DNA from: Siphonodentalium dalli
Taxonomy: Eukaryota; Mollusca; Scaphopoda; Gadilida; Siphonodentaliidae
Assembly: GCA_032622095.1 (NCBI GenBank)
Contig: CP136066.1
Location: 167,162,664 to 167,226,663 of the forward strand
Direction of reading: 5' to 3'
Length of the DNA: 64,000 bases
The translations under genes and the position numbers were made by a program. Below, in pieces: positions 23,401-60,190 of the stretch. Each line of letters starts with the position of its first letter. The first letter of the stretch is position 1. A model generated the notes under the pieces. It did not search any database and was not told the DNA's origin. It was given only the letters and a program-made list of their open reading frames with translations.

Positions 23401-25858
23401 TGGTTTTATCATGGGTGCTGTGGGTGTTGGGCTGTCTCAATGCCCTTAAAACCCACTGAAGAGCCCAAACTTTATGCAAACCATTTGCATAGATGCATAC
23501 CTATCCACAAACAACAAAAGTGTTGGAAGTAGATACATATAATGGGTCATATGGCCCAATTCAAGTTAAATATACCAATTTAACTTGAATTGTCATGGGT
23601 GCTGTGGGTGTTGGGCTGTCTCCATACCCCTAAAACCCACTAAGGAGCCCAAACTTTTGCAAATCTTCTTATACTGATGCAGATATTTCCAAAATCACTA
23701 GGAGACCTAGAAGTATATACCTTTACAGGTCCCAATTCCAGTTAAATATACCAATTTAACCATTAAAAAAACCAAATATCCCCCCTGAATAGAGCCCAAA
23801 ATCCCATTCAGGTGCCCAAATATTTTTTCCCCATTGCCTCTATATATTCTAGAGTGAAATGTGGAATCATTTACAGAATGGGTATAGTCTGAGAGATGGC
23901 TGACTCAGAAATATGTTTTCATAGGCACGGGTGCTGTATGGTTTTATCATGGGTGCTGTGGGTGTTGGGCTGTCTCAATACCCTTAAAACCCACTGAGGA
24001 GCCCAAACTTTGTGCAAACCATTTGCATAGATGCATACCTATCCACAAACAACAAAAGTGTTGGAAGTAGATACATATAATGGGTCATATGGCCCAATTC
24101 AAGTTAAATATACCAATTTAACTTGAATTGTCATGGGTGCTGTGGGTGTTGGGCTGTCTCCATACCCTTAAAACCCACTAAGGAGCCCAAACTTTTGCAA
24201 ATCTTCTTATACTGATGCAGATATTTCCAAAATCAATAGGAGACCTAGAAGTATATACCTTTACAGGACCCAATTCCAGTTAAATATACCAATTTAACCA
24301 TTAAAAAAACCAAATATCCCCCCTGAATAGAGCCCAAAATCCCATTCAGGTGCCCAAATATTTTTTTCCCATTGCCTCTATATATTCTAGAGTGAAATGT
24401 GGAATCATTTACAGAATGGGTATAGTCTGAGAGATGGCTGACTCAGAAATATGTTTTCATAGGCACGGGTGCTGTATGGTTTTATCATGGGTGCTGTGGG
24501 TGTTGGGCTGTCTCAATACCCTTAAAACCCACTGAGGAGCCCAAACTTTGTGCAACCATTTGCATAGATGCATACCTATCCACAAACAACAAAAGTGTTG
24601 GAAGTAGATACATATAATGGGTCATATGGCCCAATTCAAGTTAAATATACCAATTTAACTTGAATTGTCATGGGTGCTGTGGGTGTTGGGCTGTCTCCAT
24701 ACCCTTAAAACCCACTAAGGAGCCCAAACTTTTGCAAATCTTCTTATACTGATGCAGATATTTCCAAAATCACTAGGAGACCTAGAAGTATATACCTTTA
24801 CAGGACCCAATTCCAGTTAAATATACCAATTTAACCATTAAAAAAACCAAATATCCCCCCTGAATAGAGCCCAAAATGCCATTCAGGTGCCCAAATATTT
24901 TTTTCCCATTGCCTCTATATATTCTAGAGTGAAATGTGGAATCATTTACAGAATGGGTATAGTCTGAGAGATGGTTGACTCAGAAATATGTTTTCATAGG
25001 CACGGGTGCTGTATGGTTTTATCATGGGTGCTGTGGGTGTTGGGCTGTCTCAATACCCTTAAAACCCACTGAGGAGCCCAAACTTTGTGCAAACCGCTTG
25101 CATAGATGCATACCTATCCACAAACAACAAAAGTGTTGGAAGTAGATACATATAATTGGTCATATGGCCCAATTCAAGTTAAATATACCAATTTAACTTG
25201 AATTGTCATGGGTGCTGTGGGTGTTGGGCTGTCTCCATACCCCTAAAACCCACTAAGGAGCCCAAACTTTTGCAAATCTTCTTATACTGATGCAGATATT
25301 TCCAAAATCACTAGGAGACCTAGAAGTATATACCTTTACAGGTCCCAATTCCAGTTAAATATACCAATTTAACCATTAAAAAAACCAAATATCCCCCCTG
25401 AATAGAGCCCAAAATCCCATTCAGGTGCCCAAATATTTTTTCCCCATTGCCTCTATATATTCTAGAGTGAAATGTGGAATCATTTACAGAATGGGTATAG
25501 TCTGAGAGATGGCTGACTCAGAAATATGTTTTCATAGGCACGGGTGCTGTATGGTTTTATCATGGGTGCTGTGGGTGTTGGGCTGTCTCAATACCCTTAA
25601 AACCCACTGAGGAGCCCAAACTTTGTGCAAACCATTTGCATAGATGCATACCTATCCACAAACAACAAAAGTGTTGGAAGTAGATACATATAATTGGTCA
25701 TATGGCCCAATTCATGTTAAATATACCAATTTAACTTGAATTGTCATGGGTGCTGTGGGTGTTGGGCTGTCTCCATACCCTTAAAACCCACTAAGGAGCC
25801 CAAACTTTGTGCAAACTATTTGTATATAGATGCATACCTATCCACAAACAACAACAAC
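17460..25858 (-). repeat. Satellite array 2: about 15 composite units of 536-538 bp, inverted relative to array 1
   Basis: GCACGGGTGCTGTATGG-type landmarks fall at 18013, 18551, 19088, 19625, 20163, 20699, 21237, 21775, 22312, 22850, 23387, 23925, 24463, 25000 and 25538, so the period is 536-538. Each unit holds two related segments starting CATGGGTGCTGTGGGTGTTG, about 184 and 354 bp apart, so it is a two-part higher-order repeat. A 15-bp perfect inverted repeat (CAATTCAAGTTAAAT and its complement, six-base loop, for example 18183-18218) sits before the second segment. Copies differ by scattered single bases. There is no coding capacity. Confidence 0.95.
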
Positions 25859-30206: not shown

Positions 30207-30576
30207 ATGGACTCGAAGGAGCTTTCAAACACATATTCTGAATCAGACGACGATCGGGAGGGATCCGGCCGGAAAGAATCAAATTCGGAGCTGAGCGATA
30301 CCTCGTGTACTGGAAGTCGGCGAATTTCGGAGAGCGAACGAGGTGAGAGTAGTGACAACGCCAAACCGAAAATGAATGATTTGAAATTTTCGATAGAGAA
30401 TATTCTTGGAATGGGTTCGTCGGTTAGCTCTAGCGCAGAGAAGGACACTGTTAGTGATGGAAGTGACATTGAAATGAATGATATAAATCTGTCAAACTAT
30501 CCGGCATTTTGTGACGACGATTCATCAGGGTTTTCTTGGCTCCAGTATACGAGGTACAGACCACCGAGGCTGCATA
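30207..30576 (+). CDS. Msxlx: Homeobox gene exon 1 (residues 1-123 plus one base)
   Basis: The ATG at 30207 is the first in its frame after an in-frame TAA at 30165-30167, which supports this start. The exon encodes many Ser, Glu and Asp residues, then FSIENILG at residues 61-68, a second acidic stretch, and WLQYTRYRPPRLH just before the splice site. The reading frame runs on into the intron to 30737, but the conserved peptide stops exactly at the GTAAGT donor (30577-30582), so the exon end is well supported. The remaining A at 30576 is the first base of an Arg codon finished by exon 2. The eh1 motif is known in this class to bind Groucho/TLE; that function here is inferred. Confidence 0.85.
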
Positions 30577-33500
30577 GTAAGTACAATTATACGAGATTCA
30601 TGTGGACCAGGCGGAACAATTATACACAGAGGTGCATATGTATGGATGTCTTATATGCCACAACCACATATTTTTTGCGTAACCGGTTAATACTTTTAAT
30701 AGGAATTTGGCTAATATTTACTTCAGTCATATATTGAGTCGGAATATATATGCATGAAAGAAACGCAGAATTGATTATCACATAACAATTAAAAAAAACA
30801 TCGCCAGAACTTAAATTAATCGAAACGTGGAGCCTATAAATAATGAATGTCATTTCGGCTTTGAAAATTTAACACAGGTATTATTACACCCAAAACAAGC
30901 TTTGCTCTGACACACAAAAATAGCAATTATATATCAATTATCATCTGTTGAAATTTATTATAGGCCAATACTAGGGAATTGCCCGTCAAAAATGACGGGT
31001 CTACACACGCTCTTTATTATTTTTTGTGTATGCATTTTCGGTCGTTTTCGTCGGTTAGGCTTTGTAATTACTATCACAGCGTTTCTTTGACCAATCGCAA
31101 ACTGCAAGACAGAGTTCAGTCCCCAGTTGCGCTGGTCAGACCATCGTGGCAGGGGACTAAACTCCCCCTTGCAGTTTGGACAGATCGGCGTGAAATTTGG
31201 TGCACCGTGTTCAATGATACACTACATTATTTGGTCTAAATTTGGGCTATATATATATTGTATATATATATGCGATTGACCTTCAGTCCTTTCTGTGGAT
31301 GAATGGGGGTACCTATAACATATATATTCCAAATAACACAGTTTAGCCTGGAAGGTTACATGCATTATATTGTGTCTCCTCAGACAAAATGTTTCACAAC
31401 ATCGCGACATCTGCATGTTATGGGATTTACATCAAACACCAGAAGCGCAACATACACCTCTATAACGTAAAAGACACAACACGCTTGTTGTCTCATCCCA
31501 TTCCAATCATACATTATCTATCACTGATTTAAAAACAAAAATATTGTTTGGTTGGGAATAAATATTGTTTATACACCAATATTCTAGCTGCCCCAGAATT
31601 ATTGGGAATAATACTATATAATATACACGGGACCGTTTTGTTATTAAGGGGGAGACGCACGTTTTGCATAAATCCAGCCAAAAATGGCAAGAGATTTTCA
31701 ACAAAGAATTTATCTGGATATATTTTTTATTTGGCAAAAATATCTTGAATTTCACATATCATCTTCATTGTATTAGAATCTGAGCAATTATTAAGCGCCA
31801 ACAAAAACATGGAATTTTATACACTTTAGAGGTTGAAAAATGTATTTATTTTTTGTGTCCATTTCGGTACCACTAACTGCTAGGATAATTAATAATTTCA
31901 CACAAATCTCCAATCGCCAAATAGCTTAATGTCCTCGATGAGAGGAGGCTTCATTTGTGTCGTAATGTTGAGTTAGATTTTTAATTGCATAATATAGCAT
32001 CATACCCCCATATATTATAATGAAGAATAAAGCAGTCGTAAATATTCCAGCCCAATGAAACAAATGTTGATTTGCAGTGTGGTCCACGCAAGCAGGGTGC
32101 AATCAACAAGAATTAGGCCACATGCAGTGTTAGGAGACATGGTGGTCAGCTTTAACTTGAAATTTTAGATATTTTTGATGCCATAAAAATTAAGTAAAGG
32201 TTATAATATCCAATTGGTCGATGGTTTTTAAATATTATGTCACAATAATCGCTTGTACCAAATTTCACAAAGATATTCCTAATAGATTTTGAGAATACGT
32301 GCGTCTGACCCTTCATATGATGTGGTGCGTGTGTATAGAGCACCATATCCATTGAGGGTTACTTTAATTGTAATAAAGACGTTTATTTAAATTTTGAAAT
32401 ATAAAGAGCGTTTAACTAGGCGATTGCTCTCATTGTTATTACAATGCTTTACGCACTATATGACGAAGTCGTGCATGTGGTGACAGATGTTCAATTTCCA
32501 TATTACTTGAATTATAATTATGCGACTCAGATATAAATATTTATTATATATTTTGGAACTTCTGTCTGGGTGTGTATGTATGTATGCATGTATGTATGTA
32601 TGTATGTTTGTATGCATGCATGCATGTATGTATGCATATATGTACGCATGTATGCATGTGTATGCATATATGTATGTACGTGCGTGCGTGCGTATATGTG
32701 TGTATTATAGACTCGAAAACTGCTCGACCGATCCGACTCAAATTTGGTATGTAGGACCACTTTGATCCCGGGAACAATATGGGCGGGTCCAATTTCACGT
32801 GCGACCGTGTTCTTGACCTTGACCTTGCTCATATAAGCATGTTTCTGGACCGATCGAACAATAGCTTTTTCCTTTCTCCTAATACTTTTCAACGTTGTTC
32901 GCTCAGTATTCGAACAGACGGGGGCGATCACAAAGAACTCTCTAAATGACCCGGACGAAGTCGGGAACATCAGCTAGTATATCATATTTATGGAGGCACC
33001 GACTCAGTATGAATGTGCATTGCTTCACATGACTGTGCTTGCTTCAGTGAGCGTGAAAAAATGGCCATGATTGTGTTTATCAGAATGGCACATTGAGATG
33101 CCTCACAACTCAGATCAAGCTAGGAAATCTTGTTTTGGGTGTAATAATACATGTGTTAAATGCCGAATTGACATTAATTATTTAGGCTTTCAATTATTGT
33201 ACGTTCTGGTGGTGTTTTATTGTACGTTCTGGTGGTGTTTTATTGTACGTTCTGGTGGTGTTTTTGTTTTGTTTTACTTGTTATGTGATAATCAATTCGG
33301 CGTTTCTTTCAAGCATATATATTCAAACTCAATATGTGACTGAAGTAAATATTAGCCCAATTCCTATTAAAACCCACCCAACCTCGTCTAGATCTGACTG
33401 CGATGATCAGAGCTTTTTTTTGCAGTTTGGACCGATCTGTGTTAATTTTGGTGCATCTTGTTTTAAGATACACCACATTATGTTCGATCTTATCCACAAC

Positions 33501-36500
33501 TTAACCACCGCGGCTACGTGCATGGACATCCTCAAAAACGAAGTCCTGTCGCCGAAAGTTGGGAAGCGTATATATCAGTCTGAACATGGGTTCGGATAAT
33601 GACACATGCAGAGCGGATCTACCAATATATTGGAACAGCACAATGCACTTCCTCCAAATGTGTATTTGTGACCACACGATTACTGGGACTAGCGTATACA
33701 GCACTCAGTATGAATGTTCACTGCTTTAACCCTTTACCCAACAAACCGGCCAAAACCGGCCAAATAAAGCTTCAACAGCCTAAAATATCTTCGGTCTGTC
33801 TCAATAGAACCATACACATATGGATATCATTGGAACCGGCTCATTGACCACATTGTGATAGTTACAGTTATGCCCTGGGCCAATGCATTCTCTTATATAT
33901 GCGAGTCGACCATAGGTCGCCTCGCATATATAAGAGAATGCATTGGCCTAAAAAAAATCTTTTTTTAACACTTTTTACCATTTTTCTTACATTCTTTAAC
34001 AATTTTATAATTTTTAATGTGTTAAGCCAATGCATTCTCTTATATATGCGAGGCGACCTATGGTCGACTCGCATATATAAGAGAATGCATTGGCACAGGG
34101 CCGTTCTGTTGGGTAAAGGGTTAAATGTGCTTGCTTCGGTGAGCGCGAACAAATTCTCATTCTTATCGAAATGGCCATGTATTCATCAGAATGTCACATT
34201 GAGGACTCAAATCTAGCTTTAAAATCGGTTCCGATTTTCGCCCATGTCGGGGTTAGAACCCGAGCCAACCTAGTTTAGCCCATGCTATTGTCCACGACCT
34301 GACTACTTCGGCTGAGGCTAAGGGTATATTATAATTTGGCCTCTTAAAGGTACACAATCCGATCAGACGCTCCTAAAATACTACTTCTTTGGTTTCAGGG
34401 TTAAACATATTTGATTCGAGTCGAGGAACCCACCCATCAAAACTCAGAGTGATCAGATATAGATTTTTGAAGTTTGTTATTTCTCGAGATGTGTAATAAT
34501 ATGTGGCCCAGAAACACGTGGTCAAACGGAGGGTCTCGGACAAAATTGCCGATGAAGATGGATAACTCTAAAATCAAGTGGTAGGCCTAATACGGTCAAA
34601 TTTCGTGATACTTTAGTGATAACACGGCCATATTTTGTTGAACAAAATGTTGATAAATAACAAGTTTTGGGAAATTTGTTACCATAGTTGACAGTGGTTA
34701 GCGTTATTTTGTTGCAATAAATCGATTCTGATAACTGACACGTATTTTGAAGAAATGTTGATGGTATGGGAACCGTCTGATCGGATTGAGTACCTTTAAT
34801 TATCAGGCCAAATAAAGAAAAGAAAAAAAAGAAAGAAACATACTTGCAATTACCGTCATTCGTATTGCACAGGCATCGCAAAAATCCACAAAATCTTTCT
34901 AAGTATAATCGATCTTTTTTGCGTTGAAATCGATCACAAAAGTTCATAACTGAGAACGCTCTTTATTATCTACCGTAAATCATGGACGCTCTTTATGCGA
35001 TCATTGGATTTGTTTAGCTAGGCTGACATTTCAAAACGTATTAAAACTTCATCCTTTTAAAGTCGATATCTGGCCCTCAAAACACCCCTCATAGGTTGGA
35101 TCTAAACATATGATGTCCTGGTATAGAAAATGTATATATAGTGGTTTTCCCTTATAAGAAACACTCGGGTAAATTCCCGTGAAAAAAAACTGCTTTCCGA
35201 AGGGTGTCGAGAAGGATTTTTTTTTCACCCCACCGCCCCATATATGCAACATTCCATATAGCTCAATGTCATCTCTACTAAGTCCCATATGAGGTCCCAG
35301 TAACATAAATATGGTGTTTTTGCAGTTATAAATTCTTATAATATGTTTTAAACTGTTACAAATGTCATATAAGGGCACAAAAGGTCTTTAGTAAAAAAAT
35401 TGCATGAGGGTGTAAAAAAAAAACACGTTTTTTGCCCCTCGGACCACCCACCACCCCGGCATACCTTCCTGCAAATTTGTTACTACACTCTTAGAACAAA
35501 TGTGTATAAATACTACACAATATGTGTTACATTTGATCTTAAACAAAATTGTGTAGAAATGCAACATGACATAAATGTGTCGGTGGAATTTTCTCAAAAT
35601 TGAATATGAGTGAATATGTGAGTATATTATATTTAATAGATGAGATATTTTCTATTTGAGACATAAACCTCGTAAAAGCTGCCATAATAAAACATTGGCA
35701 GCTGCTTTAAAACTTTGTGCTACACAATTATGTGTTGTTCAGTTTTTACACAAACATAGTGTATAACAAAGTTTAAAGCTGCTGCCAATTGTTTGTTATG
35801 TGGTAGCCTTTACGAGTTTTGTGTCTCCAATAGAACACATTTCATCTAATAACTATGATACACTCACATATTCAATCATATTCAACGTTGATGATATTCC
35901 ACCGACATATTTAATAATTATATGTCATGTGTCATTTCTACACAATTTTGTTTAAGATCAAATGTAACACATTTTGTGTAGTATTTATACACATTTGTTC
36001 TAAGAGTGTACCCCCCTGTGTACACGATTGATTTTTTAAAACCCGAAATCGAACCTAACCTGTATTTTATAGCTGTAAACAACATGCATACTAAGTTTCG
36101 TCGATATAGATCCAATTCGGTCAGCATTAACTGAAGTTATCCGGAAACGAACATTGAGCCCAAATTCCAACAAACGCTGGGAACTCTTGTAAAAGTAGGG
36201 GTTTGGAACACGACATCGAAGTTCATCTTTATTTTATGGTATTGAACATACATACCAAATTTCATTCGCTTAAGTTCTATAGAACTAAATCAGTTATCGC
36301 CGCAAACGAAAATTGGACAGGCAGACGGACAGAAAAAACAATAAAAACATAATACGCCCCAATTTAAACATGCATGCATGGTTTCAAACTTCCAGTTACA
36401 ACAACAATCTAAATCTTAGTTAACACGATTTTCTGCAAATGTTGAAAACTAAATACGACATGCAATTATATGTATAATTATTTAATGTAAACATACCTTT

Positions 36501-39500
36501 TTCTAATTCCAAACAAATAAAATAACATACAGACAAAATTCTAAATAGAAACCATAAACATAATATGTATTTGTACTATAAATAAAAAAAAAACGATTGG
36601 GGCACAAGTTTTAAACTTACCCACACTGCCAAACTATTAGCGGCCTATCAATGGACACTGGGGCATCTCGGGCCACATACTAGACCAATTATATACCAAA
36701 TAATATAATTTTTGTTTATGAAAAATGTAATTTAAATTGAATAGATAATATTTTTGTGACCATCTAAAACATCAAATCTTCATGAAATAAATACATAGCA
36801 CATTCGATATCATCAAAATCGATTTTCTCTAGAATGGCAAATCTTATTCCAAACATGTTATATCATACAATAGAATCTAACTGAAAATTAAACTAAGTTC
36901 CCTAAAAATTAGCCCGGAACCCTGAATGCATCTTGAAAAACTTGCGTATAAAATACTAAATTTGGGGGGAAAACACATCTCAATGACACCGACATATAAT
37001 ATTCTCCGTTTGTAGTTGGAACGAACACGTGGATTCTCTTCAAATCGATATTGTTTTCGAAACACCTGTATCGAGTTCAGTTCATTGGGTCATTGAATCG
37101 TCTATCGTTTTTAACAGCTAGTTAACTAATGATGGTACTTGGATTTCAAAGGATTTTGACTTCTCATTATTTGAAACCAAAACAAATAGCGGGAACACAC
37201 AAAGAAGTCAGCTTTCCGCGCGCGACATTTCCATGGCTTTTGTTAATAGGAACTGTCAGAATTGCTTCCTTGTTGAGTCGCCGTTGTGCATCATTATAAT
37301 TATCCCACTTGATTTTTAAACTTGATCACGCGACTCGTTCACTGAATAGGGAAACCCCATCAGTTGGCGAAATTACGTCATCTGCGCGAGAATTAATTCC
37401 GAGAATATCTCTATTTTCAAAAATAATCACACAGGAACCAGGGTTGTGACTACAGATTGTCTCCCCTTTCCATGCGGCCCGTGCCCAACTCCGAATTTCC
37501 GAATGCACGTCCGCATTCCACCTGAGTTAAAATCCCGTTATATATCATAAGTTATAGATAGGTTTATTGAATTGAATAAGGGTATGATAATGTAATAAAA
37601 TGTTTTAACAAGTTTAAGTTAATTGTTATAACAGTTTATATGTAGTAATGCACAATGTCCAGCAATTTTCACCAACATGGGAGGAGGTACTGTACTTCAA
37701 ATATATGCTGAGCCATTATCTTTGGCATAGGTCCCATCAAGCATTTTATTTTATTTTCGGCAGAAATGGTAGTTGTAAACAAATATTTGTAATTTGGCTT
37801 CTTCGTCCAATTTGTCAAAATGATATCAGTAAATAAGCTTCTTCTTCCGGGTAGCTATGTTAGAGCTGAGAAATATTTGAAATAGAACGGAAGGTATCGT
37901 AGCAATTTAAAAAATATGTCTTGCAAGTGCAGATGACAGAATTCGGGTTATTTTCCTATAACCAAACACACATATAGTTGGTCTTCACTGAATACGAAAA
38001 TCATATTACGTATCCCAATTTTTCACGTTTTGTGAACTTTCCCATGTTTTGTAAAAAATATTTAAACCATAAAACCTGTGATGCCACATTTAACACAGGC
38101 TACACTGGAAGTTATGTCACCAGATGCTTATTGTTCTATTTTTCAGTCCCCTAAAACCCTCGAAATCGTGTACTGCTAACTTCAGTAAACGGTAAAAGCG
38201 GTTTAGGGTGGATACACACATGCATGAAATTTCTGTTTGTAAAATACATGTATTTTACATGGTAAATGTATTTTACATGGCCACACCAATAATTGACAAC
38301 ATTAATCACCTGCGCCCGAGCGGTTCATTGTTAACAGGCCAGACAAGTGAGTAGTGATAAGCGAAGTCAAACTGTCTGTTATCAGGACATTTAAGGCCAG
38401 TCCAAAACATGTCTTCTCTTACGGATGCGAAAATTAGTCTGGCATATGCAGGCTTGATATAGAACATGTGTACGTCGCTTGGCATCGAGTAATGGTTTTA
38501 ATATTGGTTGACCGAATGTAAATATAGGCACATGTATATATAATGTATATAATAGGCATAATTACCAATTGGGTGACCAACGTTTCATAGTGTATGTAAC
38601 TCATCAACATGTCTTCTCTTACGGATGCGGAAATTAGTCTGGCAGGCTTGATATAGAACATTTCCGGCCATGATGCTTGTTTGGCTTGGGGTCTCGAAAG
38701 ATTCAAATCGCCAAGGGACTTATTTGAATGTATCGGTCGGAATAATCTGGGCAAGAAGGTACAATATAATATGTTTTCCTTAAATAGCTCAAAGTTAGCC
38801 ACAGGGTCCGCGCTGGCAGCAAATTTGATTTTTGGCAAATATTTTGCCAAATGAAAATAATTTTTGCCAAATGTTGTTAGAAGTTGTCAAATTCTATCAA
38901 TTCTACAAACATTGTGCCTTTTATTTTGATTATTTCAACAATCGCTGCTTGAGCGTCCATTGATATCGACAGGAAAGCAGTTAATTACTGATAATTATCG
39001 CCTCTATACTTAGCCACCCCGCATGGTAGCTTTCTCGATTATATAGCCCCAAGTCGGGGATCATATATAGCCCCTGCGTCGGGGAAATCCTGATCCACCA
39101 CTGCTATAAATATCAAGAGAGGACTGGTAATTATTTAAATAAAACGTCCACCATATGGATTATCACACGAACAATTATTTTAAGTGGCCTGGCGACTCGG
39201 TCCAAGATAGAGATTTCTCTACATTCCGACTTAATTGGAACTCGAACTCAGTGCGGTCAACACGTCGGCAATGATTGGGTTGTCAGTGGACACATATTAC
39301 ATTGTCTGTATGATCCATGTAAAACGCCAAATACACGATAATTACAGAGATTACATGCATGTGTGTATCCACCCTTAACAATCATCCGTTGAGAAGCGAT
39401 CTCTTCCGATTAGGATTTGTGTGGCCCAACAGAGGCAGTTGCAAGACACCCTGTCCATTCTCTCCTCACACTTCACCCGCGGGGTTCAATTCAATCGAAG

Positions 39501-42500
39501 AGTATTATTGCCTTCGCCAGAAAATGACATATAAGACAAAATACATATAATGAACACAAAATATTATACATCATTCATAACGATCACACCACGCATACCA
39601 GCCTTCCAACATGATCTGTCCACTGACTATCCCTTCCAGTGTCGGTGAAAATATAGCAACCATGTTATATCTCTGCCTCTAGACTGATTTCGGTCAAACA
39701 ATGCTTGATGTATATAGGGTGTCATATAGAAACCTCTCCACACACCACACCCCGATCCCAATATTGCCACCGCCCAGATGGGTGCGAATATGGTATCCTT
39801 GTCTCGGATTATCCAATCGGAAGTTATCTTATATCAACGCAAGACGCATACACAGCACTGTCCGTATCATGTACACAAATCCCAGTCGTAAGAGATAGAT
39901 TTTTGCTGGTTGGTTGTTAAATTGGTGTAACTGTTCGGTATATACATGTAAAATTTTGATGACGCTAATACGCTGTCGTAGTTTTATCCCCCTTTTCGAC
40001 TCAGACATGTTTAGCACGCACTTAATTTTGTGCATGCTGGCGTGTACTCCGTCGTTTTAATTTTTTTAAAATGAAATCAACATGGCAACCTGTGTGTACC
40101 TGCGATTACGACTGAGATTGGTTGGACATATTTTATTATAGTTCAGTTATCACCACTTTTTTACTTGGCACTTTTATTGCATTTGTTGTTTTTGTTTGCC
40201 ATTTCGATCTGAAATTTAAAGTTGTGGCGTTGGAATTAGCGATATCAATTTGCTAGCTAATTACGTGTACATAATTTATGAACCGAAAGAGCCATCTCCT
40301 TTTAACATGGCTACCCTTTTTGAAGCCCGCGTGTACTGTATATATGTAGTAACATTGGGACTAACACACCAAGTATTCTAGTTGGAAATTGGAACATTCC
40401 AGCATAACACCCATATGTTAGCATTCTTTCCAACTTATGGTAAAAACACTTTGCAACTGTTCTTCCAGAAATTAAATTCCCAACAGTTTCTGTTGAAAAT
40501 TGTGTCTACAATTGGGACACATACGACCACTTTACGTCATGACCCTGACATGGACGTAGGCTGGAGGATTTACGTTTGATGTTGCAACTTCAAATTTGTA
40601 GCAACACCTCCCCCCCCCCCCCGTGACAACATTACCAACTGTATCAGGTCTCATCGTTGACGTTTTGGGTTGCACTCACAATCCATACGAATGCATGATT
40701 AAACAAATATTTTCTATTGATGTGGTCAATTGCGTAGGAATTCTGTCGGACAAATTTTCGGGCGATATAACCATTAACCCTTTCAGTGCCAAGTCCGATT
40801 TTTGCATCAGCTCATATTTCCTTGATCATTTTTCAAATTTAATGATTATAATAATGTGATACATTGATGGAAAGAGCCCTAAGAGCTCTTTCCATCAATG
40901 TATCACATTATTATAATCAATAAATTTGAAAAATGATCAAGGTAATATGGGTTGATACAAAAATCGGACTTGGCACTGAAAGGGTTAGATGAACTACCCG
41001 CCGTGATTTGAGTTGAGTTCTGAACAGTGAACACGATCATCATCTTGCAGGGATGAAAAAGGGAGAAGGAGCAAAGAAGCGGAAGTTGGGCAGGAACCCC
41101 AGAGTGCCATTCACCCAACACCAGGTGGCGTCACTTGAACAGAAGTTCAAGAACACACACTACTTGAGTAGCATGGACGTGGCGGAACTATCATCTGCGC
41201 TCAACCTCACAGAGACCAGAGTGAGTTATCAACCCAACTCTTTGTTATCCATTAATGAATAATTTTTTTGCGGATCTATGCCTTTTAGCAAACAAATATA
41301 TACAAGATGACAGAGCGCCAGTATAGTTATTCGAAATGTAAATTTTGTAGATAACGCTGCATACATTGTGGTGATGGTGTCTCTAAAATAGCTCTTTCGA
41401 AGCCCAAAATTATGGATACATAATTTGGTAAGAGGTATCTCAAAACATAACTATTAAGCGCCCCTCAATTACTATTTATTTGGCTTCGGAGGAAAAAAAT
41501 ATTTGATTCGAGTCGATGAACCCACCCATCAAAGCTCAGAGTGATCAGATATCGATTTTTTAAATCTATTGATTTTCACCACCTGGAATATATAGTGGCC
41601 CAGTAAAAGAAGACGGAGAAGAATGTCTCGGATCAAATATCGGATGAAGGTGGATAACTCTAAAATAAAGTGCCTTTTTTGTGTCAGATATTTGATAAAA
41701 CCGGCAAAATATCGTTGAAAAAAATGTTGATAAATAACAGGTTTTGAGCAATTTTATACTATAGTTGACTGTGGTTAACATTATTTTTGGGCAACTAATC
41801 GATTCTGATAACTGAAGCGACATTTCAAAAAAAAAATTGTTATTGGAATCTGATGATATGGGAACCATCGAATCGGACTGAGTACATTTAATACAGCCCA
41901 AAGCAGTGGAATAGTAGTATCATGATCGGAAGCAAGATCATAAGAACAGTTCCCGTATAGGTATCTGCTTCCCATCTTTTTGCCAACATTGAAATATTTC
42001 TGAGTGATTATACAAAGATATGCATTATATATATGGATTGCATATTCTAAAAGCCTGTAACATTCACCTCACAATTATAACGGTGCATGTGCACATACAT
42101 TGTTGGCCGATGCACTCCATGTGGCATCCAAATGGACTAGGCAGTGGGTCAGTAATTGTTTGATTGTGTATGTGTTGTCGACAATAATATACAAAATCAA
42201 ATGGTTTTGGTAACCAGTGAATGATGTAAAAGGCTCAGAGGGCTAGATGATATTTGCAAATATTTTGTTATAATTTTATATTGTTGACATGCTGATGTCA
42301 CATTTTGTCATTAAAACTGGGTTTATGTTTTATGTATGTAGCCATGTATATGACTACTGGTACATGCTTATTGACTTGAATATCGACTGGCAGATATAAT
42401 GAGAAAGAATAAGATATTGATGGCCACTGCATGAACATGTAATAGTATTGAAAGTGGAATACAAATGTTTATCATTTAACACCCTGTAGATCCCGCTTCC

Positions 42501-45500
42501 GAGAAAACGTGGCTTCCAGGAAATTGAGTTTGTAAACAAAATCACACTTGTGTCACCATGCACGAGAAAACCATTGTTTAAACGATTTTGTTATTTCGTG
42601 ACGGCGAGATATTTGCAAATCTAAATAAAAGAATGGTGACAGATAACAGAAGCCGAAAGGTGCGCAGACTTAGATATTTGTTGGCAGTTTTATTTTGTTT
42701 CTATTTCCAAACTTCATCGAAATACTGAAAAAATGTAGTTAATCAGATGACTTGCACTGAATAACTGTTATTCGGGGCTTATTTTGTCAATTGTGCTGAC
42801 CGGACAGATCTATTGGAAAATGTCAGTGATAAAACCGAATTATGTGAAATACTGGTTAACTTTGACGAATGCCATAACATTGTAATGTTTCCAGTAACGA
42901 GCGAGGAGCAATGTGCTATAGCAATGTGCTCCTACCTATTGCAGCATAAACGAACTTTTAATCCGATTGCAAAGGCACTGTAGCATATCATTCAATGGGT
43001 ACGGTGGTTGACGGCTAAATATGTCCAACAGAACTTCATAAAAATCCCATGGAAATACGAAGTGACCATCTGGGATCCAACTTCAAGTTGATAGCGGGTT
43101 AATTAGCACGCCTGTGTCACAGGTGTGTACATATATATGGCAAATTTTGGCGGTATGTTTTAGATGGTCATGAAGAGTCTGGTAGGGTCCCGAAGTTATG
43201 GAAGGGGGTCTGTGTATTTGTATGCTGCTATTTTTTGTGCAGTAAATGGGATAGTTGTGGAAATGCTAGATTTTAGTTTTAAAAACAAACCGAAAAGGAC
43301 GCATTTGTTGTCACCGAATGTCGGATGACGTTCTAAGGGAAAATTGACCACTTGAAGTTCAACTAGGCTTAACCCATTGCCGGCAGGGCTTACAGTTAAC
43401 ACTGTCGCATATGGAAAATAATTGGTTGTTTGTAACCTTCAAAGGGTAGCCAATTAGTAACAAATTACTGGTCAGGATATTAAGGTCCTTCATTTTGTGA
43501 TGATGTAATGATTACCAATACCTTCATTATAGCAATACCCCCATATTAAACGAATGACACAAACAAGTAATTGGACTGTTTCGGTGTCATTAAATCAGTC
43601 TCCCGTTGTTTCTGCTCAGCGACTTATCTGAAACCGACACTTAGAGCCACGGAAACGGAACGCTCATAGTGAATTAGCATTTATTTGCTGCGCACTGAGA
43701 AGTTCCTTTCATTAACAGACACCATAACAAAATGAACATATGCGCCGATTCTAAGAATTATGTAATAAAATAAGATAAAATGAGTTATTTCAATACACAA
43801 ATGGAGGCAGTTGCAAATAACATTTAATACACGAACAGTTAAACATTAAAATAAAAAACATGTTATATATACGACGCATGGATATAGTCCTTCGTATACA
43901 CGATAAATTAATAATTTAATTATTAAATGTTAATTTCCCGATATTTCCAGTCTGTCTTTTCTTTTTAGAAATAATAACCGGATCATGTTGAACACGGAAT
44001 TGATTATTTGTTTGCCCTCGTTCTTTATTATGAAGATGAACGTATCATCATGAGGCATATTTTTGAGACATATCCTATAATTCTGAGCAATATCAAAGAT
44101 GTAAGTCTTTCCTGGAGTCAGTGTACGCACTGCATTTCATAATAATTTTTTTTCCAACTTTATGTTCATCACACATTTGAAAATTCTGTCTTTTAATGGC
44201 GTGTTTGGTTGCGTGTGTCGACCCCTTCATATATAGATAAAATATGATTGATAACACGTATTCTGGTGAACACCTCTCATGCTTCTGGTTTCATATGAAA
44301 ACAATTCTGAATCAAATGTTGAAACACACACGTGTTTCATGTTACTATTCAATAATAGACACATCTCTCACAATGAACGACGACATTGAATAATTGACGA
44401 CAGATAATTATTACGAATAGCTATCTGTGGTCATAATTTTTTTCGGACGGTCAAAAATCCTTTTCGCAGAATTGACGACAACGAGTCCGTTAGTGAGACA
44501 ATCGTGTTTGTCACTGGCAGTAAGTGGATTGTTGTTCTGCGTGCCGTAATTATTTTATACTTAAAGGCCCACTTAATTTTCGAGTGAGTCGCCGATTATG
44601 TTTGTATACTGACTTGATGTACGGTTTTAATAACAATCTATGCCATAAAATATGATTAAAATACTATAATTCATCACTATTTGAAACATCTGTGTCACAG
44701 AAGATGCCCACAGAAAAATAGACAACTGAAATCATATAATGACTCCCCCCCCCCTGGAACCCAGAATGCAACAGAATTCAAACTTTTTCAATGGAAGGGA
44801 AATAACTCTATCTTTAATATATAGAGTTATTCCACCTGCATTGAAAATAATACTGATTTTACTGCAATCCAGATGACAAAACGCGTTGGCAACTCAACAA
44901 AAACATGTCCACATTTTATTACATCGGATAAGTTGATAATACACTGTCTTTGAGCTTCCTCTTTCAAATGGTATATAATATGGCATATATTATATATAAT
45001 GTAATCTGGTGGTTCGAAAATTAAGTGGGCCTTTAATTATGTTGTTATCAGGTCATAGCTTAGCGCTTTTTATTTCGCAAGATTCCCCTGTTTCACGACG
45101 ACGAATGATTTGATTGCCATTTATAGATACAAAATTGAGACCACAATGCCGCCACATGGCGATCACAATTTGAGGACATAATCTCATATTCATCTCCCAC
45201 ATTGAGGAGCCGAGAAACAATCGCTTATTACTTATTACTATATGATTTATTTGCGAGTGCATGTTGTTGGCAAACCAAAACCGTAATCGTAACAACGGAT
45301 AGGAAAAAAAACGACAACGAATAGAAAGCACACAAATTCTAATGACGTAGTAACCTATTCATAATAATTAACTGTCGTAGTTCAGTATGCGAAATGCATC
45401 TAATATTTGACACCTTTCGCAATATGAACGACGACAGATAATTATTACGAATAGGGTACTACGTCACTAGAATTTGTGTTCTTTATATTCGTTGTCGTTT

Positions 45501-46824
45501 TCCCTATTCGTTGTTACGATCATGTTTTCGGATTTTCAACAAAACTCACTAATACATCACATATTAATAAGTTCGCGATCCTTTCTCATCTCCTATATGT
45601 TGAAGATGATTCTGCGATTTTTTCCTTAAATTGTGATCGCCAGTTGGTCTTAATTTGTATCTATTATAGTGGCAATCAAATCATTCGTCGCCGTGAAACA
45701 CGAGAATCTTGCGACACAAAGCGCTAAGCTATTACCAACATAATTAGGTACAAAATAATCACGGCACGCAGAACCATAATCCCTTACTCTGGGTGGCAAG
45801 CACGATTGTGCGCTCAATATTGTTTATTCTTATAAACTGTATAACATACAGTGTTAAGAAATACACAACGTGACGTTGGGCCGGTCTTCTCCCAACACAG
45901 TATACAACATACATAATATACAGTTCACGCATTACATTAAACACGATGATATATGACAATGCAAAAATATTTTATAACATAAAGGTACATATATGTGATT
46001 GGAAGGAGATCGGTCCGCCGATATGATCACAACGCATGCGCCTGTTTGATAATTTTCAACAGAGAAATTGGAAAGAATGACTAATTATGCATGGGGGAGA
46101 ATCGTCCCCAACTATTACAGTGAGGAACTAAAGGGAGTAGTCCTCGTCCGACAATTTGGTCGGAACTTGGTCTAACAAACGGACTCGATCGGGGTCGTCA
46201 ATTCTGCGAAAAGGGGTTTGGACAGTCTGTACAAATTATGACTACAGATAACTATCTATTCGTAATAATTATCTGTCGTCGTTCATTATTCGAAAGAAAT
46301 TTCCAGTAAGGTATACGTTCAGTTCAGACACTTGAACGATCGGAGTGCAATCGCAACTGCTATATATATATAAGATCTGTTTTGCCATTTCAAAAACATT
46401 TATTTCAAACTGGAATAGGCTGCTTTTGACGACTGTACATGTAGCTACTGGATATTGATGTTGTGATGATTATTCTGTGCTATTTGATATGTTGAGAAAA
46501 CGACGCCAGATTATAAAAGTGTAGAATGGGTCCTCTTTATTGAGGGAAATGCTCTGATAATAAGTTCAAAAAACTTTGTTGAACTAATTATCTGAACATG
46601 TCCTATGTGATAACTACTCATCAATGAGTATTTAGTGCAGAAATTGTTAAAGATGGTCTATCTCTCCCTAACAAGTGCTATACCTATCCGGGGTATCAAA
46701 TAATTAATATGAATCGAAGACACCTTACTGAATATTCGCAGCATAGCGAGCAGGAGAGCTAACTCTCTCTCTCTCTTTCCCTCTCCATCTCCCTATCCCT
46801 TTCCCTCTCCCCCTCTCTCCCTCT

Positions 46825-46872
<48 letters not shown>

Positions 46873-49659
46873 CTCGCTCTCTCTATCTCTCTCTCTCCCT
46901 CTCCCTTTCCCTCTCCATCTCCCTATCCCTTTCCCTCTCCCCCTCTCTCCCTCTCGCTCTCTCTCTCTCTCTCGCTCTCTCTATCTCTCCCTCCCTCTCC
47001 CTTTCCCTCTCCCTCTCTCTCCCTCTCGCGCTCTCTCTCTCTCTCTCTCGCTCTCTCTATATCTCTCTCTCCCTCTCCCTTTTCCTCTCCCTAACCCTTT
47101 CCCTCTCCCCCTCTCTCCCTCTCGCTCTCTCTCTCTCTCCCTCTCTCTAGTAAGCACTCCATCAAGACGATGTCATTTCCATTCAGATATTTTGCAGGAA
47201 TAAAGCACTTTTTTTTATACCTGAATGGACCAATAATATACACAATCTTCAGTTTTATCTGTGTTTTATTCACAAAAGTTATTTGTAGTCTTGAAATATG
47301 ATTTTATAAACAAAATATTTTGTAGTTGTGGCCCGGAAGAGATACACCATCTTTAAAGATGGATTATCTCTTCATATAACAATTTTGAAATAGTTTCTTT
47401 TGTATAAAATAATAAATATGAATTGAAGACCCCTGTCCGGAAACGCTTCTATCAATAAATATCGATTTTATTTCGAATATGTTATTATAAAATTAGATGA
47501 TTATAAGGGACACATAATTGTTCTATTTTTAGAACAGTCCATTCAGGCGGTATCATATAGCGATAGAGGTCGTTAGTGTGCTCCAATTGCTACACTCCGA
47601 CGTCAAATGTCCCATATTGATCGTTTGTATTGTTTTATTACATAGTTATAAGCGATAATGAGTAATTAACGTTTATATGTGACAACATTACACAATACAA
47701 TTTCTGGTCTCTGTTAACAGTGACCACTATTGTTCGTTAACTAAAGAATCACACTTGTTTATACCAGAAAATATTCGCAATATAATTAAGAAATAAATAC
47801 ACGGTGTATCGGTGTGTATGGTCAAGTTGTACCACAAAAAACTGATTGTAGGACGACGCGTAGCGGAGTCCTACAATCAGTTTTTTGTGGTACAACTTGA
47901 CCATACACACCGATACACCGTGTATTTATTTCTTTTGTAATACGACTGAAAGTTTATGGTCACAATTCGACTGAATAGTCAACGAAATACTGCGCTTTTT
48001 CGGTCTCAGGTGAGAAAACATTTCGTGGTGTAATTCGTATTGAGCGTACTCGATTTCTTTGCATGGAGTACTCTCGTAATGTCTTGTCTTGTTATGAAAT
48101 TCCCCCGTTGACTTTTCGAGGCACCTCTTCTAGAAATAATCGTTGTGATTGGCTAAAAAACGATGTGTTTTCAGCGGCGCCCGTGCGTTTCATTTAAATT
48201 GTACAGGAAATACGATGCGGTCATTTCTGTTTTGAACGTTGTTGGGACAACATGAATATGATCATCGACTATGGACCCATTTCCTTACACAAAGCGATCT
48301 AAATGATCTAGTTTACTAAACTAATCTTATTCCCCTTCTGTACTGGTGAACAAACGCTTTCATTTTCAACTTGATTCCGAAATATCGAATATGATCGAGA
48401 TTCGAATCGACGAATGCACAGCCCGGCCCCATGGATTTATTTTGTCATTTAATATACTTATTAAGTAACTTTCTTTGGTCGTAACATATATCAATATACC
48501 ATAACATCATTTGGACCATATTCATTGGCAACCAAACTGGTTTCAAGCGACAAATCGCTAGAAAATTCGCAAGATTGTCAAGATGTAGCAAAATTCAAAG
48601 GGGTGCGGGTGTACTCCGTTGATGCCCCGTTTGCGCGGAGTTAGAAAAGACGGGAAAAGTCGCGTGCGGCGATCTGAATAAACCGATTGTTTTCGTGGTA
48701 CAATTGGAAAAAGTAGAATTGTACCACAAAACTGGAACGAGATAGCCATGGTAACTCGGGCCACTGGCCAATCAGGACATGGCTTTTAAGCATAGTTAGG
48801 CAGGGTCGTATTACAATCAATATTAATCGATAGAAGCGTTTCCGAACAGGGGTCTTCGATTTATATTTAATACTTTATACTCATGTAACTACATAGCGCA
48901 TGTTTACAAATGGATAGACCATCTTTAAACCATATAGCTTGTTTTATTTTTAGATTCAAGTGTTGACTATTTGCCTCTCTAAAATAAAATTTTAAATCAA
49001 CAACTTGAGACCCCCTACTTTGAAATTGAAAATTACCGACTACCTCAATAGGGTGTGCTCATTTGATATTTTCGATAGTTATAAAACTTCAAAAATCACT
49101 TGTGTGCTCTATGAACGACACAAACAACATGGTAATTATAATGAAAATGAGTTTATAATTACCATGTTGTTTACATCGTCCAAAGAGCACACAAGTGTAG
49201 TTTGCACTAATCCATGGCTCAATGTCATTCATTTGTTGCATATATTCTGTTGAGTATAAAAGGAGATGATCCCATAAATGACCCGATTTAGTGTACAATC
49301 CCCCTTTAACAATACATGTATATAGTTCACTATATAATACATGTATGAAATTTCATTGATATAGCAGACTATATACATATTTCCAGAATAATAACTTGTA
49401 GATTTCCATTTTATTTTAGGTAAAAATTTGGTTCCAAAACAGGCGCGCAAGAGAACGGAGAGACCGCGAGGTGGCGCTGCAGTCATCTGAGTTTTCTTCT
49501 TCGAAAGCCACCAAGGTTGATGTGTCGCCATCGCTTCTGAGTCAGATTCCGGCGAATTCCTTCATATTATCACATATTCGACAGAGCTTACAGATGCCCC
49601 GTACAGCATTCCATCATCTGCCGTGCTTGCCGTTTCCTGTTTCCCGTTTGGACCATTAG
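30207..49659 (+). CDS. Msxlx: Msxlx-like homeobox gene, complete three-exon coding sequence: join(30207..30576, 41051..41220, 49420..49659)
   Basis: The joined exons total 780 nt, which is 259 codons plus TAG. Exon 1 ends with one base of a split codon at a GTAAGT donor. Exon 2 starts with two bases after CAG and restores an Arg codon, and exon 2 joins exon 3 in phase 0. In order, the protein has an acidic, Ser-rich N-terminus, an eh1-type motif FSIENILG (residues 61-68) of the kind that recruits Groucho/TLE co-repressors, the peptide WLQYTRYRPPRLH (111-123) common before NK-like homeodomains, and a homeodomain at about 137-196. The homeodomain has F8, L16, F20, W48, F49, Q50, N51 and R53. 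A 63-residue tail without a recognised domain follows. It is expected to be a nuclear DNA-binding repressor. The start GRNPRVPF and the end NRRARERRDRE fit the Msxlx family better than Msx, Barx or NK. Homeodomain identity is near certain; the family name is moderately sure. Confidence 0.9.
31644..32314. mobile_element. TTAA-type element of 0.67 kb, family starting GGGGGAGACGCACG
   Basis: The left end is TTAAGGGGGAGACGCACGTT. The right end reads ACGTGCGTCTGACCCTT, its inverted partner, with the final TTAA mutated to TTCA. The interior matches 26865-27665. Short frames inside show no transposase. Confidence 0.6.
32540..32976 (+). mobile_element. Non-autonomous Helitron, copy 1, with internal tetranucleotide microsatellite
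   Basis: The 5' side reads A|TTTATTATATATTTTGGAA (the second copy has the canonical TC start). The 3' end has CCCGGACGAAGTCGGG, a short hairpin, eight bases, then CTAG followed by T, as Helitrons require. A (TGTA/TGCA)n tract at about 32572-32700 fills the middle, which explains the long MYVCM- and HTYMH-type frames on both strands. No Rep/helicase is present. Confidence 0.65.
32977..33725. other. Intron 1; includes the 33240-33370 repeat arm, otherwise no gene
   Basis: The segment 33420-33490 (GCAGTTTGGACCGATC and TTTTGGTGCA) directly repeats 31165-31237. Frames here carry no domain. Confidence 0.3.
33726..34124. mobile_element. TTAA MITE, family CCCTTTACCCAACA, full copy with two internal hairpins
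   Basis: TTAACCCTTTACCCAACA at the left is mirrored by TGTTGGGTAAAGGGTTAA at the right. The CCC start and TTAA flanks are the piggyBac pattern. Two near-perfect palindromes of about 70 bp lie inside (33878-33948 and 34026-34094), built from CCAATGCATTCTCTTATATA and its complement. A second copy is at 51823-52158. Confidence 0.85.
34236..34318 (-). repeat. tRNA-like SINE head
   Basis: On the minus strand GTAGTCAGGTCGTGG resembles a polymerase III A box. About 40 bases later GGTTCTAACCCC resembles a B box inside a TPsiC-like stem (CTCGGGTTCTAACCCCGA). The acceptor stem does not pair well, so it is not a tRNA gene. A SINE head is the likelier reading. Confidence 0.4.
34344..34799. mobile_element. 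TTAA MITE, family AGGTACTCAATCCG, copy B
   Basis: TTAAAGGTACACAATCCGATC starts it, and GATCGGATTGAGTACCTTTAA ends it at 34799. It shares TTTGATTCGAGTCGAGGAAC and GTTGACAGTGGTTAGCGTTA-like blocks with the copies at 13748 and 41420. Confidence 0.8.
34800..35483. other. Intron 1; no gene recognised
   Basis: G/C-rich runs with CACCCCACCGCCCC and GGACCACCCACCACCCCGGCAT recall the interior of the 470-1540 element (GACCACCCACCCCGGCATAT at about 1105), so part of this may be a related transposon interior. Confidence 0.35.
35484..36010. mobile_element. Palindromic MITE of 0.53 kb, ends TACACTCTTAGAACAAATG
   Basis: The two ends are inverted copies for well over 90 bp: TACACTCTTAGAACAAATG at the left, CATTTGTTCTAAGAGTGTA at the right. 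The centre is also palindromic around AAAGCTGCTGCCAA. TA at both borders may be the target duplication, giving CACTCTTAG as terminus. The element folds as a long hairpin and has no coding capacity. Confidence 0.8.
36011..36360 (+). repeat. Probable tail of a dispersed retroelement
   Basis: Phrases such as ACCAAATTTCATTCGCTTAA and GGACAGGCAGACGGACAG followed by AATAAAAACATAATACGCCCC have the form seen in 3' tails of invertebrate non-LTR or SINE repeats. No coding part is attached. Confidence 0.3.
36361..38400. other. Intron 1; no gene or repeat family recognised
   Basis: AT-rich sequence. Short frames on both strands (for example 36877-37065, 37326-37508 and 37648-37836) show no domain or motif. 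Confidence 0.25.
38401..38665 (+). repeat. Direct duplication of about 55 bp, 195 bp apart
   Basis: CATGTCTTCTCTTACGGATG through AATTAGTCTGGC and AGGCTTGATATAGAACAT occurs at about 38408-38467 and 38609-38662. Confidence 0.55.
38666..40773. other. Intron 1; no gene recognised
   Basis: There is a C-tract at about 40608-40622 and TTTTGCCAAAT repeats at 38830-38870. Open frames at 38434-38850 (minus) and 39359-39920 (plus) have no recognisable domain. A possible B-box-like GAGTTCGAGTTCC on the minus strand near 39240 is too weak to call. Confidence 0.25.
40774..40988. mobile_element. Palindromic TTAA MITE of 215 bp, ends CCCTTTCAGTGCCAAGTCCG, 62 bp upstream of exon 2
   Basis: TTAACCCTTTCAGTGCCAAG at the left is mirrored by CTTGGCACTGAAAGGGTTAG at the right (last base of TTAA changed). 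The arms pair along almost their whole length, around a tight CCTAAGAGCTC turn. The piggyBac-like pattern matches the other TTAA families in the window. Confidence 0.85.
41051..41220 (+). CDS. Msxlx: Homeobox gene exon 2 (N-terminal arm, helices 1 and 2 of the homeodomain)
   Basis: The acceptor CTTGCAG ends at 41050. The first two bases, GG, complete the Arg codon begun in exon 1, and the next 56 codons run in frame to a GTGAGT donor at 41221. The exon has a basic stretch (KKGEGAKKRKL), then homeodomain positions 1-44, ending LNLTETR. The break between positions 44 and 45 is a classic intron site in ANTP-class homeoboxes. The polypyrimidine tract is weak, and only 62 bp separate the exon from a palindromic MITE at 40774-40988. 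A further MITE lies about 200 bp downstream. Confidence 0.92.
41420..41891. mobile_element. TTAA MITE, family AGGTACTCAATCCG, copy C (left end worn)
   Basis: The right end reads TCGGACTGAGTACATTTAA at 41891. TTTGATTCGAGTCGATGAAC and GTTGACTGTGGTTAACATTA blocks match copies A and B. The left terminus is only partly recognisable (AGAGGTATCTCAAAACA). It lies 200 bp downstream of exon 2. Confidence 0.65.
41892..44371. other. Intron 2; no gene recognised
   Basis: Open frames at 42354-42563, 43196-43402 and 43930-44130 (minus) show no domain. No clear inverted or tandem repeat was found. Confidence 0.25.
44372..46287. mobile_element. Compound palindromic element, four copies of an AATGAACGACGACAG terminus
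   Basis: Copies of the terminus occur at about 44372 and 45425 (plus) and 45395 and 46287 (inverted), each followed by AGATAATTATTACGAATAG. Blocks at 45055-45330 and 45560-45730 are inverted copies (GCTTAGCGCTTT, AATGATTTGATTGCC). The outer blocks TTTTCGCAGAATTGACGAC and GTCGTCAATTCTGCGAAAA also pair. This is either two adjacent elements in head-to-head arrangement or one complex foldback. A TTAA MITE is nested at 44561-45036. Confidence 0.65.
44561..45036. mobile_element. TTAA MITE of 476 bp, ends AGGCCCACTTAATTTTCGA, nested in the 44372-46287 element
   Basis: TTAAAGGCCCACTTAATTTT at 44561 is mirrored by AAAATTAAGTGGGCCTTTAA at 45036, with TTAA on both sides. The inside is non-coding. Its position inside another element shows it is the younger insertion. 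Confidence 0.85.
46647..47356. mobile_element. TTAA element of 0.71 kb, family AGATGGTCTATCTCT, carrying a CT microsatellite
   Basis: The left end TTAAAGATGGTCTATCTCTCC is mirrored by GGAAGAGATACACCATCTTTAA at the right. Its right TTAA (47353-47356) is also the left TTAA of the next element. Most of the body is the (CT)n tract at 46761-47149. Confidence 0.7.
46761..47149 (+). repeat. CT/CCCTCT-rich microsatellite
   Basis: About 390 bp of CTCTCT with interspersed CCCTCT, CCATCTC and CGCTCT variants, and a repeated higher-order pattern of about 110-150 bp. Confidence 0.95.
47353..48928. mobile_element. TTAA element of 1.58 kb, family AGATGG, containing a long perfect hairpin
   Basis: The ends are TTAAAGATGGATTATCTC and GGATAGACCATCTTTAA. 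Inner inverted blocks GACCCCTGTCCGGAAACGCT (about 47430) and AGCGTTTCCGAACAGGGGTC (about 48835) confirm the pairing. No transposase is present. The frame at 48558-48764 has no domain. Confidence 0.75.
47788..47934. repeat. Perfect hairpin: 67-bp arms, 13-base loop
   Basis: Arms 47788-47854 and 47868-47934 are exact reverse complements (for example TGGTCAAGTTGTACCACAAA against TTTGTGGTACAACTTGACCA). A weaker relative with GTGGTACAATT and AATTGTACCAC is at about 48694-48727. It lies inside the 47353-48928 element. Confidence 0.9.
49098..49197. repeat. Hairpin of about 100 bp, 220 bp upstream of exon 3
   Basis: CACTTGTGTGCTCT and ACATGGTAATTATA are mirrored by TATAATTACCATGT and AGAGCACACAAGTG around an 11-base loop. 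It may belong to a worn TTAA MITE ending CAATCCCCCTTTAA at 49309. Confidence 0.7.
49420..49659 (+). CDS. Msxlx: Homeobox gene exon 3 (recognition helix and C-terminus, stop TAG)
   Basis: A strong pyrimidine-rich acceptor (TTTATTTTAG) precedes the exon, which opens in phase 0 with VKIWFQNRRAR. These are homeodomain positions 45-55, with Q50 and N51 as the key base-reading residues and A54. RERRDRE follows, then a tail rich in Ser, Leu and Pro that ends LPFPVSRLDH. The stop is at 49657-49659. No second eh1 motif or other known domain is visible in the tail. Confidence 0.9.
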   Translation, partial: VKIWFQNRRARERRDREVALQSSEFSSSKATKVDVSPSLLSQIPANSFILSHIRQSLQMPRTAFHHLPCLPFPVSRLDH

Positions 49660-49751: not shown

Positions 49752-49757
49752 AATAAA
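49752..49757 (+). terminator. Candidate polyadenylation signal AATAAA of the homeobox gene
   Basis: AATAAA lies 93 bp after the stop codon of exon 3 and is followed by a T/G-rich stretch. Its position and orientation suit a short 3' UTR. AATAAA is common by chance in AT-rich DNA. Confidence 0.4.
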
Positions 49758-59534: not shown

Positions 59535-60190
59535 GTGGAAAGCGATAGCCACCCAAGGTACACATGTACAACCCACCCATTACCCCAGTCACTCTATATG
59601 TACATAAACACCACACAAATGACAACATAGTCACCCACTTTATACATGTACATGTACTAGTACACCTGATCATACAGCCATACTTATACAGCTTATACCA
59701 CAAATGACGATACAGCCACGAGTCACCATGCATGAACGCCAGGTATACACCTACACCCGACACATGACCATATAGTCACTCTATGTATACATATTCACTA
59801 CATTCACGATAATACAGTCACTCATTGTATACATATTCACCTCACCATGGACCATACAGCCACTACATGTATACCTATTCGCCATACCCATGACCATAGA
59901 GTCAAACCGGGTATACATATGCACATCACCAATGGTGAGCCCTTCCAGATATACCAATATCCGCAAATACGACCACTCATAAGTTCCATACTTGCCATAC
60001 TCATACACGCCATCCATGATAATAAATCTACTCCCCATACACCACCAATGATAACACATCCACAACATATATAAATATACGTCCCACCGTTACCAACAGG
60101 GCACTCCCTATATACCCACACATCATTCATGACCATACAATAACTCCCTGTATTATCTATTACCCTCATCTATGATCATAGAGTAACTCC
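59535..60190 (-). repeat. Minisatellite core, inverted part
   Basis: The same units read in reverse complement (CCATACAGTCACT, CACCTCACCCATG, TGTATACATATTCACC). It is about 1 kb shorter than the direct part, which accounts for the off-centre hairpin. Confidence 0.75.

Follow-up and report, generated by a model that had tools for sequence, protein, structure and literature searches.

Does a homeobox in a repeat-rich stretch of a scaphopod genome belong to a complete gene, and if so, to a gene of which family? The stretch in question (hereafter the window) comprises 64,000 nucleotides of Siphonodentalium dalli DNA, C6:167162664–167226663, in an assembly of 2,226,750,531 bases (2.23 Gb) and nine contigs. 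A first-pass annotation had proposed that three exons with matching phases rebuild one 259-residue protein with an eh1 motif, a pre-homeodomain peptide and a full homeodomain, and had called it Msxlx-like. We find that the three exons form one intact reading frame and very probably constitute an Msxlx gene, a close relative of Msx within the NKL subclass of the ANTP class and one that we liken to that family by description rather than by sequence-level comparison.

Gene Structure

The gene lies on the plus strand and spans ~19.5 kb. Its joined coding sequence of 780 nt translates in an intact frame into 259 residues followed by a stop. The features are as follows.

30207..30576, plus strand: coding exon 1, residues 1–123 and the first base of codon 124; begins with ATG and ends at donor GTAAGT in phase 1
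30387..30407, plus strand: eh1-like motif FSIENIL, residues 61–67; the pattern used for eh1-like motifs matches nowhere else in the window's six frames
30534..30575, plus strand: pre-homeodomain box SWLQYTRYRPPRLH, residues 110–123 (SW box)
30577..41050, plus strand: intron 1, 10,474 nt, phase 1
41051..41220, plus strand: coding exon 2, from the second base of codon 124 through residue 180; acceptor TTGCAG, donor GTGAGT
41089..41220, plus strand: homeodomain positions 1–44, in exon 2
41221..49419, plus strand: intron 2, 8,199 nt, phase 0; interrupts the homeodomain after position 44
49420..49659, plus strand: coding exon 3, residues 181–259 and the stop
49420..49467, plus strand: homeodomain positions 45–60 with the recognition helix, in exon 3
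49752..49757, plus strand: AATAAA polyadenylation signal, 92 nt past the stop

The exon coordinates proposed earlier proved exact. Translation begins at the ATG at 30207, which has a good context (AAAATGG), and ends with the TAG at 49657–49659. Consensus borders are seen for both intron 1 (donor CATA/GTAAGT at 30576, acceptor TTGCAG/GG at 41051) and intron 2 (donor CAGA/GTGAGT at 41220, acceptor TTTTAG/GTAAAA at 49420), and the intron phases fit exactly across both junctions. The distance of 10.5 kb given earlier between exon 1 and the homeobox agrees with the measured length of intron 1, while the statement that the exons occupy 1% or less of the window is correct for each of them (below 1%) but not for their total (1.2%). 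Judged from its sequence, the homeodomain is not a chance match: Pfam PF00046 aligns to residues 138–194 with E = 5e-21 and is covered from profile position 1 to 57 of 57. The structure, the unbroken frame and the order of the motifs are direct observations, and the gene is presumably transcribed.

Copy Number and the Msx Genes of the Genome

A search of the whole genome with the whole protein yielded 122 candidates, all of which were scored, and 51 matches. The self-like matches are the three exons of the window and nothing else; no second copy was found in this one search. The best non-self matches fall in three Msx places on C2 (79.1, 74.8 and 74.8 bits), with NK1 next at 56 bits, so that only Msx genes exceed 60 bits outside the gene itself. 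The genome holds two distinct true Msx genes, here called MsxA and MsxB, both on C2 and both separate from the window gene. Each of their homeodomains is identical to human MSX1 at 55/60 positions and to fly Dr at 54/60.

Each first exon of the two Msx genes carries two eh1-like motifs (FSVDSI[IM] and FSI[DA]GIL), with an SW[LM] box (SWLRNT or SWMPNT) ahead of the intron, and a phase-1 intron, its borders judged by eye, separates this box from the homeobox exon. In MsxA (A/GA) and the window gene (A/GG) alike, this intron interrupts a codon for Arg that precedes one for Met. The pre-homeodomain intron measures ~6.1 kb in MsxA, 19.5 kb in MsxB and 10.5 kb in the window gene; the lengths in the genome's own Msx genes indicate that a gene span of 19.5 kb is not unusual here. 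Several other homeobox exons (loci L047, L061, L066 and L067) appear, like exon 2 of the window gene, to end at homeodomain positions 44/45.

Attachment of the First Exon

A different reading accepts the homeobox exons as real and assigns exon 1 to no gene or to another gene, and it would be compatible with any family name. The open frame of exon 1 measures 189 codons from stop to stop, a length within chance for such a window, as 11 frames of at least 187 codons arose in 60 simulated windows. The lone eh1-like motif is likewise within chance (77 in 150 simulated windows, or 0.51 each, against one in the real window). Alignment of the whole exon with Msx exon 1 was also not significant, with shuffled sequences doing as well in 171/1000 and 434/1000 trials. 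All three measures were set aside as proof of exon 1, and because similarity over the whole exon does not rise above that of shuffles, the case for it rests on the pair of motifs and the intron.

The two motifs in one frame, eh1-like first and SW[LM] after it, turn up a single time in the real window and never in the 150 simulated ones. This pair is found 5' of the homeobox, with which it shares a strand, and the donor that closes its frame has a phase compatible with exon 2. These observations, together with the good start context, the consensus donor, the exact phase-1 match and the presence of the same architecture in both of the distinct Msx genes, argue against an unattached exon 1, which we consider very improbable.

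Kinship with Msx

Against 31 reference homeodomains, that of the window gene is most similar to MSX2 and Dr (35/60 each) and MSX1 (34/60), with NKX2-5 next (32/60). Among genes of the same genome the closest are MsxA (35/60) and MsxB (34/60), followed by NK1 (32/60), NK4 (30/60), NK2.1 (27/60) and NK2.2 (25/60). A first tree, built with these references (among them an HHEX row misaligned by one position, 2/60), joins the gene to Msx at 83/89, with the Msx genes proper forming a group of their own (91/83) that excludes it. The second tree combined reference rows with 17 full-length, ANTP-class homeodomains of the genome itself; HHEX was left out, as were intron-split, Hox, Tlx (stop in the last positions) and PRD- or POU-like rows and further engrailed-like copies. 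In it the gene groups with four Msx rows at 94/93, the order among the five rows being flat, and falls outside the NK2/NK4 group (starred, 100/98). Both trees rest on 60 columns and contain no Msxlx rows, the branch of the window gene is long, and no starred fork holds it.

Among solved structures the best score goes to a chain that contains two engrailed domains (65.8 bits for the chain, 33.7 and 34.6 for the domains taken singly), followed by Msx-1 (1ig7, 61.6 bits) and an NKX2-5/TBX5 fusion (61.0 bits); with the last two so close, the structure search alone cannot pick between Msx and an NK2-type gene. No relatives of the gene were found in bacterial or archaeal genomes or in viral contigs, and four homeodomain strings had no match printed in the literature searched.

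The identities of NKX2-5 and of the genome's own NK1 (32/60 each), close behind Msx, invite assignment to some other NKL family, namely NK2, NK4, NK1, Barx, Bsx, Nedx, NK7 or Noto. Set against this, NK1, NK2.1, NK2.2, NK3, NK4, Hmx, Lbx and Barx were each found separately in the genome, close to their respective families, and the window gene stays with Msx in both trees. For Nedx, NK7 and Noto, which have no rows in the trees, the opposing evidence is the Msx affinity and the chromosomal linkage described below. We regard membership in any of these families as extremely unlikely.

A diverged, lineage-specific duplicate of Msx, rather than an orthologue of Msxlx, deserves closer consideration. 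The nearest relatives by identity and by tree are indeed Msx, and the second tree does not part the window gene from them; Msx does duplicate in this genome, as its several Msx places attest; and the order of motifs and intron 1 are common to Msx. Taken alone, the identity figure may also be compatible with a fast-evolving Msx copy. The two undoubted Msx genes, however, have remained nearly unchanged; since they retain 54–55 of 60 positions in common with MSX1 and Dr, 34–35/60 is not the value of a recent Msx copy. The window gene further possesses an extra intron within the homeodomain, and no other match in the whole-protein genome search is as Msx-like without being Msx. It differs from Msx in homeodomain identity and also in location, being on C6 instead of C2.

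Chromosomal Linkage

Msxlx is described in PMC7978419 and PMC10726417 as a member of the nkx2.1-nkx2.2-msxlx-pax1/9-slc25A21-mipol1-foxA (NK2 or pharyngeal) cluster. PMC12403961 places PAX1/9, FOXA, MSXLX and NKX2.1/2.2 of the annelid Alvinella on one scaffold and MSX with NK genes on another.

A similar partition is seen here among the loci classified. On C6 we find NK2.1 at 140.85 Mb, NK2.2 at 141.25 Mb, an NK2.2-like gene at 141.38 Mb, the window gene at 167.2 Mb, FoxA-like genes at 185.69 and 185.80 Mb, and a Pax1/9-like gene at 203.30 Mb, while Msx, NK1, NK3, NK4, Hmx, Lbx and Tlx are on C2. The Pax1/9-like paired box is identical to human PAX9 at 122/131 positions. It is one of four classified among 17 Pax matches (the others being Pax3/7-like on C4, Pax6-like on C7 and a partial Pax2/5/8-like on C1), so further Pax1/9 genes may lie elsewhere. 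The two FoxA-like forkheads (88/96 and 86/96 identical to FOXA2) are, with one FoxG-like gene, the three classified of 62 forkhead matches, six of which are on C6, and FoxA may likewise occur elsewhere. The homeodomains of the genome were taken from the best 150 of 505 candidates scored.

The linkage is loose, as the window gene lies 26 Mb from NK2.2, 18 Mb from FoxA and 36 Mb from Pax1/9. A random gene would fall on C6 with a chance of ~10% (233/2227 Mb), so the linkage by itself is good but not overwhelming evidence. A location on C6 with NK2.1/2.2, FoxA and Pax1/9, rather than on C2 with Msx, nonetheless speaks against an Msx duplicate, which we judge to be improbable. Combined with a homeodomain that is Msx-like without being Msx, the linkage leaves Msxlx as much the strongest reading. 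The Msxlx-like label of the first-pass annotation is supported by the Msx affinity in both trees, the separate Msx genes on C2 and the partner genes on C6.

Other Homeobox and Forkhead Loci

The genome scan also turned up several gene groups of independent interest. Hox-like homeoboxes occur on C7 at 77.0–78.8 Mb and include what we take, from their signatures, to be Lox- and Post-like homeodomains; these point to a spiralian. Also on C7 are at least eight engrailed-like homeoboxes, at 44.80, 47.94, 79.08, 140.45–140.49 (four, in a tandem group) and 163.37 Mb; two of the homeodomains in this set are identical and 3 Mb apart. Four of these calls were best to EN2, one joined EN2 in the second tree, and three were made by eye. 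Tandem arrays of forkheads with near-equal scores lie at C4:194.32–194.69 Mb (17 rows) and C5:93.75–93.82 Mb (eight rows).

Among the best 150 of 505 candidates, an array of at least 13 homeobox exons ending at profile position 46 occupies C1:189.99–190.29 Mb. From the same 150, at least five homeobox exons at C9:120.5–121.7 Mb end at profile position 53, three of them with an in-frame stop; these are possibly recent copies and pseudogenes. Identical or equal-scoring homeobox or forkhead pairs were seen at C2:30.39 and 31.26 Mb, C2:223.319 and 223.346 Mb, and C6:194.00 and 195.55 Mb, and represent either recent duplication of genome segments or copies from the second haplotype that the assembly has retained.

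Repeat Content of the Window

The gene is set in repeat-rich DNA: 52% of the window matches itself elsewhere, about half of this being satellite arrays. An array at 17728–25850 has a period of ~538 bases, with long self-matches that are 89–98% identical. A shorter, inverted relative at 2081–5100, 13–23 kb away, is ~91% identical to it over 2.7 kb and displays sub-repeats of ~175 bases; further arrays, of 173–183 bases, are found at 7.5–11.1 kb. Inverted repeats of 1.9 kb (55963–57879 and 60119–62070, ~92% alike) bound a fold-back-like element of 6.1 kb whose outer ends are near-identical. Within intron 1, a palindrome at 40843–40919 has two perfect 35-base arms and lies ~130 bases 5' of the homeobox exon.

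Earlier description of these surroundings as a sea of transposons finds little backing in the satellite share or in the coding content, as just one of ten further ORFs scanned against Pfam exceeds the cut-off for a transposon domain (a reverse transcriptase, 62809–63171). Two other ORFs have matches below the Pfam cut-offs (Ion_trans_2 and Pex24p), and the others have none. Non-coding remains of transposons may be common in the window. Rfam and tRNA searches of the window gave no match.

Predicted Function

Homeodomain positions 47, 50, 51 and 54 have an established role as recognition residues, and eh1 motifs recruit Groucho/TLE co-repressors. The window gene has I47, Q50, N51 and A54, identical to Msx, which makes a TAATT-type DNA target likely, and its eh1 motif makes repression likely. 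The predicted protein would bind DNA through its Msx-like homeodomain, probably at TAATT-type sites, and would repress its targets with Groucho/TLE brought in by the eh1 motif; the product is most likely a Groucho-dependent repressor.

Expression would probably occupy a restricted domain of the head, brain or foregut. Msxlx expression is described for the anterior nervous system and pre-oral pit of amphioxus (PMC2982225), for the head lobes of Tribolium (PMC13088399) and for the dorsal midline of a hemichordate during regeneration (PMC10065570). Our best guess is that the gene acts in a limited part of the head or foregut, with expression in tapeworm ovaries (PMC6225667) pointing elsewhere.

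Evolutionary Implications

The function of Msxlx has been little studied. The family had been said to be missing from several model animals, and this is so for vertebrates and tunicates (PMC6225667); across PMC2982225, PMC13088399 and PMC6225667, losses are recorded in these two groups and in several arthropod lineages. The statement does not extend to the fly (CG15696) and Tribolium, which possess the gene according to PMC10726417 and PMC13088399. Exons separated by such long introns are easily missed; a case in point is MSXLX of Alvinella, which, according to PMC12403961, is in the genome yet absent from the gene build.

The window gene is an ordinary further member of a known family, and its interest lies in the linkage more than in the gene itself. 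Having the full gene model together with its place on the chromosome adds one observation to the debate over a deuterostome versus a bilaterian status of the pharyngeal cluster (PMC7978419, PMC12403961). Presence of NK2.1, NK2.2, Msxlx, FoxA and Pax1/9 members on one chromosome would favor a linkage of bilaterian age, and the common layout of eh1 motif, SW box and phase-1 intron suggests that the ancestor of Msx and Msxlx already had this first exon. We think it likely that five pharyngeal-cluster families share this chromosome, over 62 Mb, by inheritance of a bilaterian linkage, and that Msx and Msxlx descend from a single gene in which such an exon 1 was in place.

Comparison with Known Systems

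The window gene resembles Msx (MsxA and MsxB, human MSX1/2 and fly Dr) in its eh1-like motif, SW[LM] box and phase-1 pre-homeodomain intron, in 34–35 of 60 homeodomain positions and in the recognition residues 47, 50, 51 and 54. It differs in its chromosome and neighbors, in 25–26 homeodomain substitutions and in the added intron at 44/45. It has one eh1-like motif (FSIENIL) against two each in MsxA and MsxB, and R44 with a RARERR end where Msx has Q44 with RAKxKR.

With the Msxlx family (fly CG15696, amphioxus AmphiMsxlx, Pacific oyster CGI_10013606 and Ptychodera Pf-Msxlx), compared by description and not by sequence, it shares an Msx-related NKL homeodomain, separation from Msx, and linkage to NK2.1, NK2.2, FoxA and Pax1/9, although here the linkage is chromosome-wide (62 Mb) and not a tight cluster. 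For the pharyngeal gene cluster the comparison covers the transcription-factor members: they are spread out and non-contiguous in this genome, unlike those of the cluster, and yet all five transcription-factor families have members on C6.
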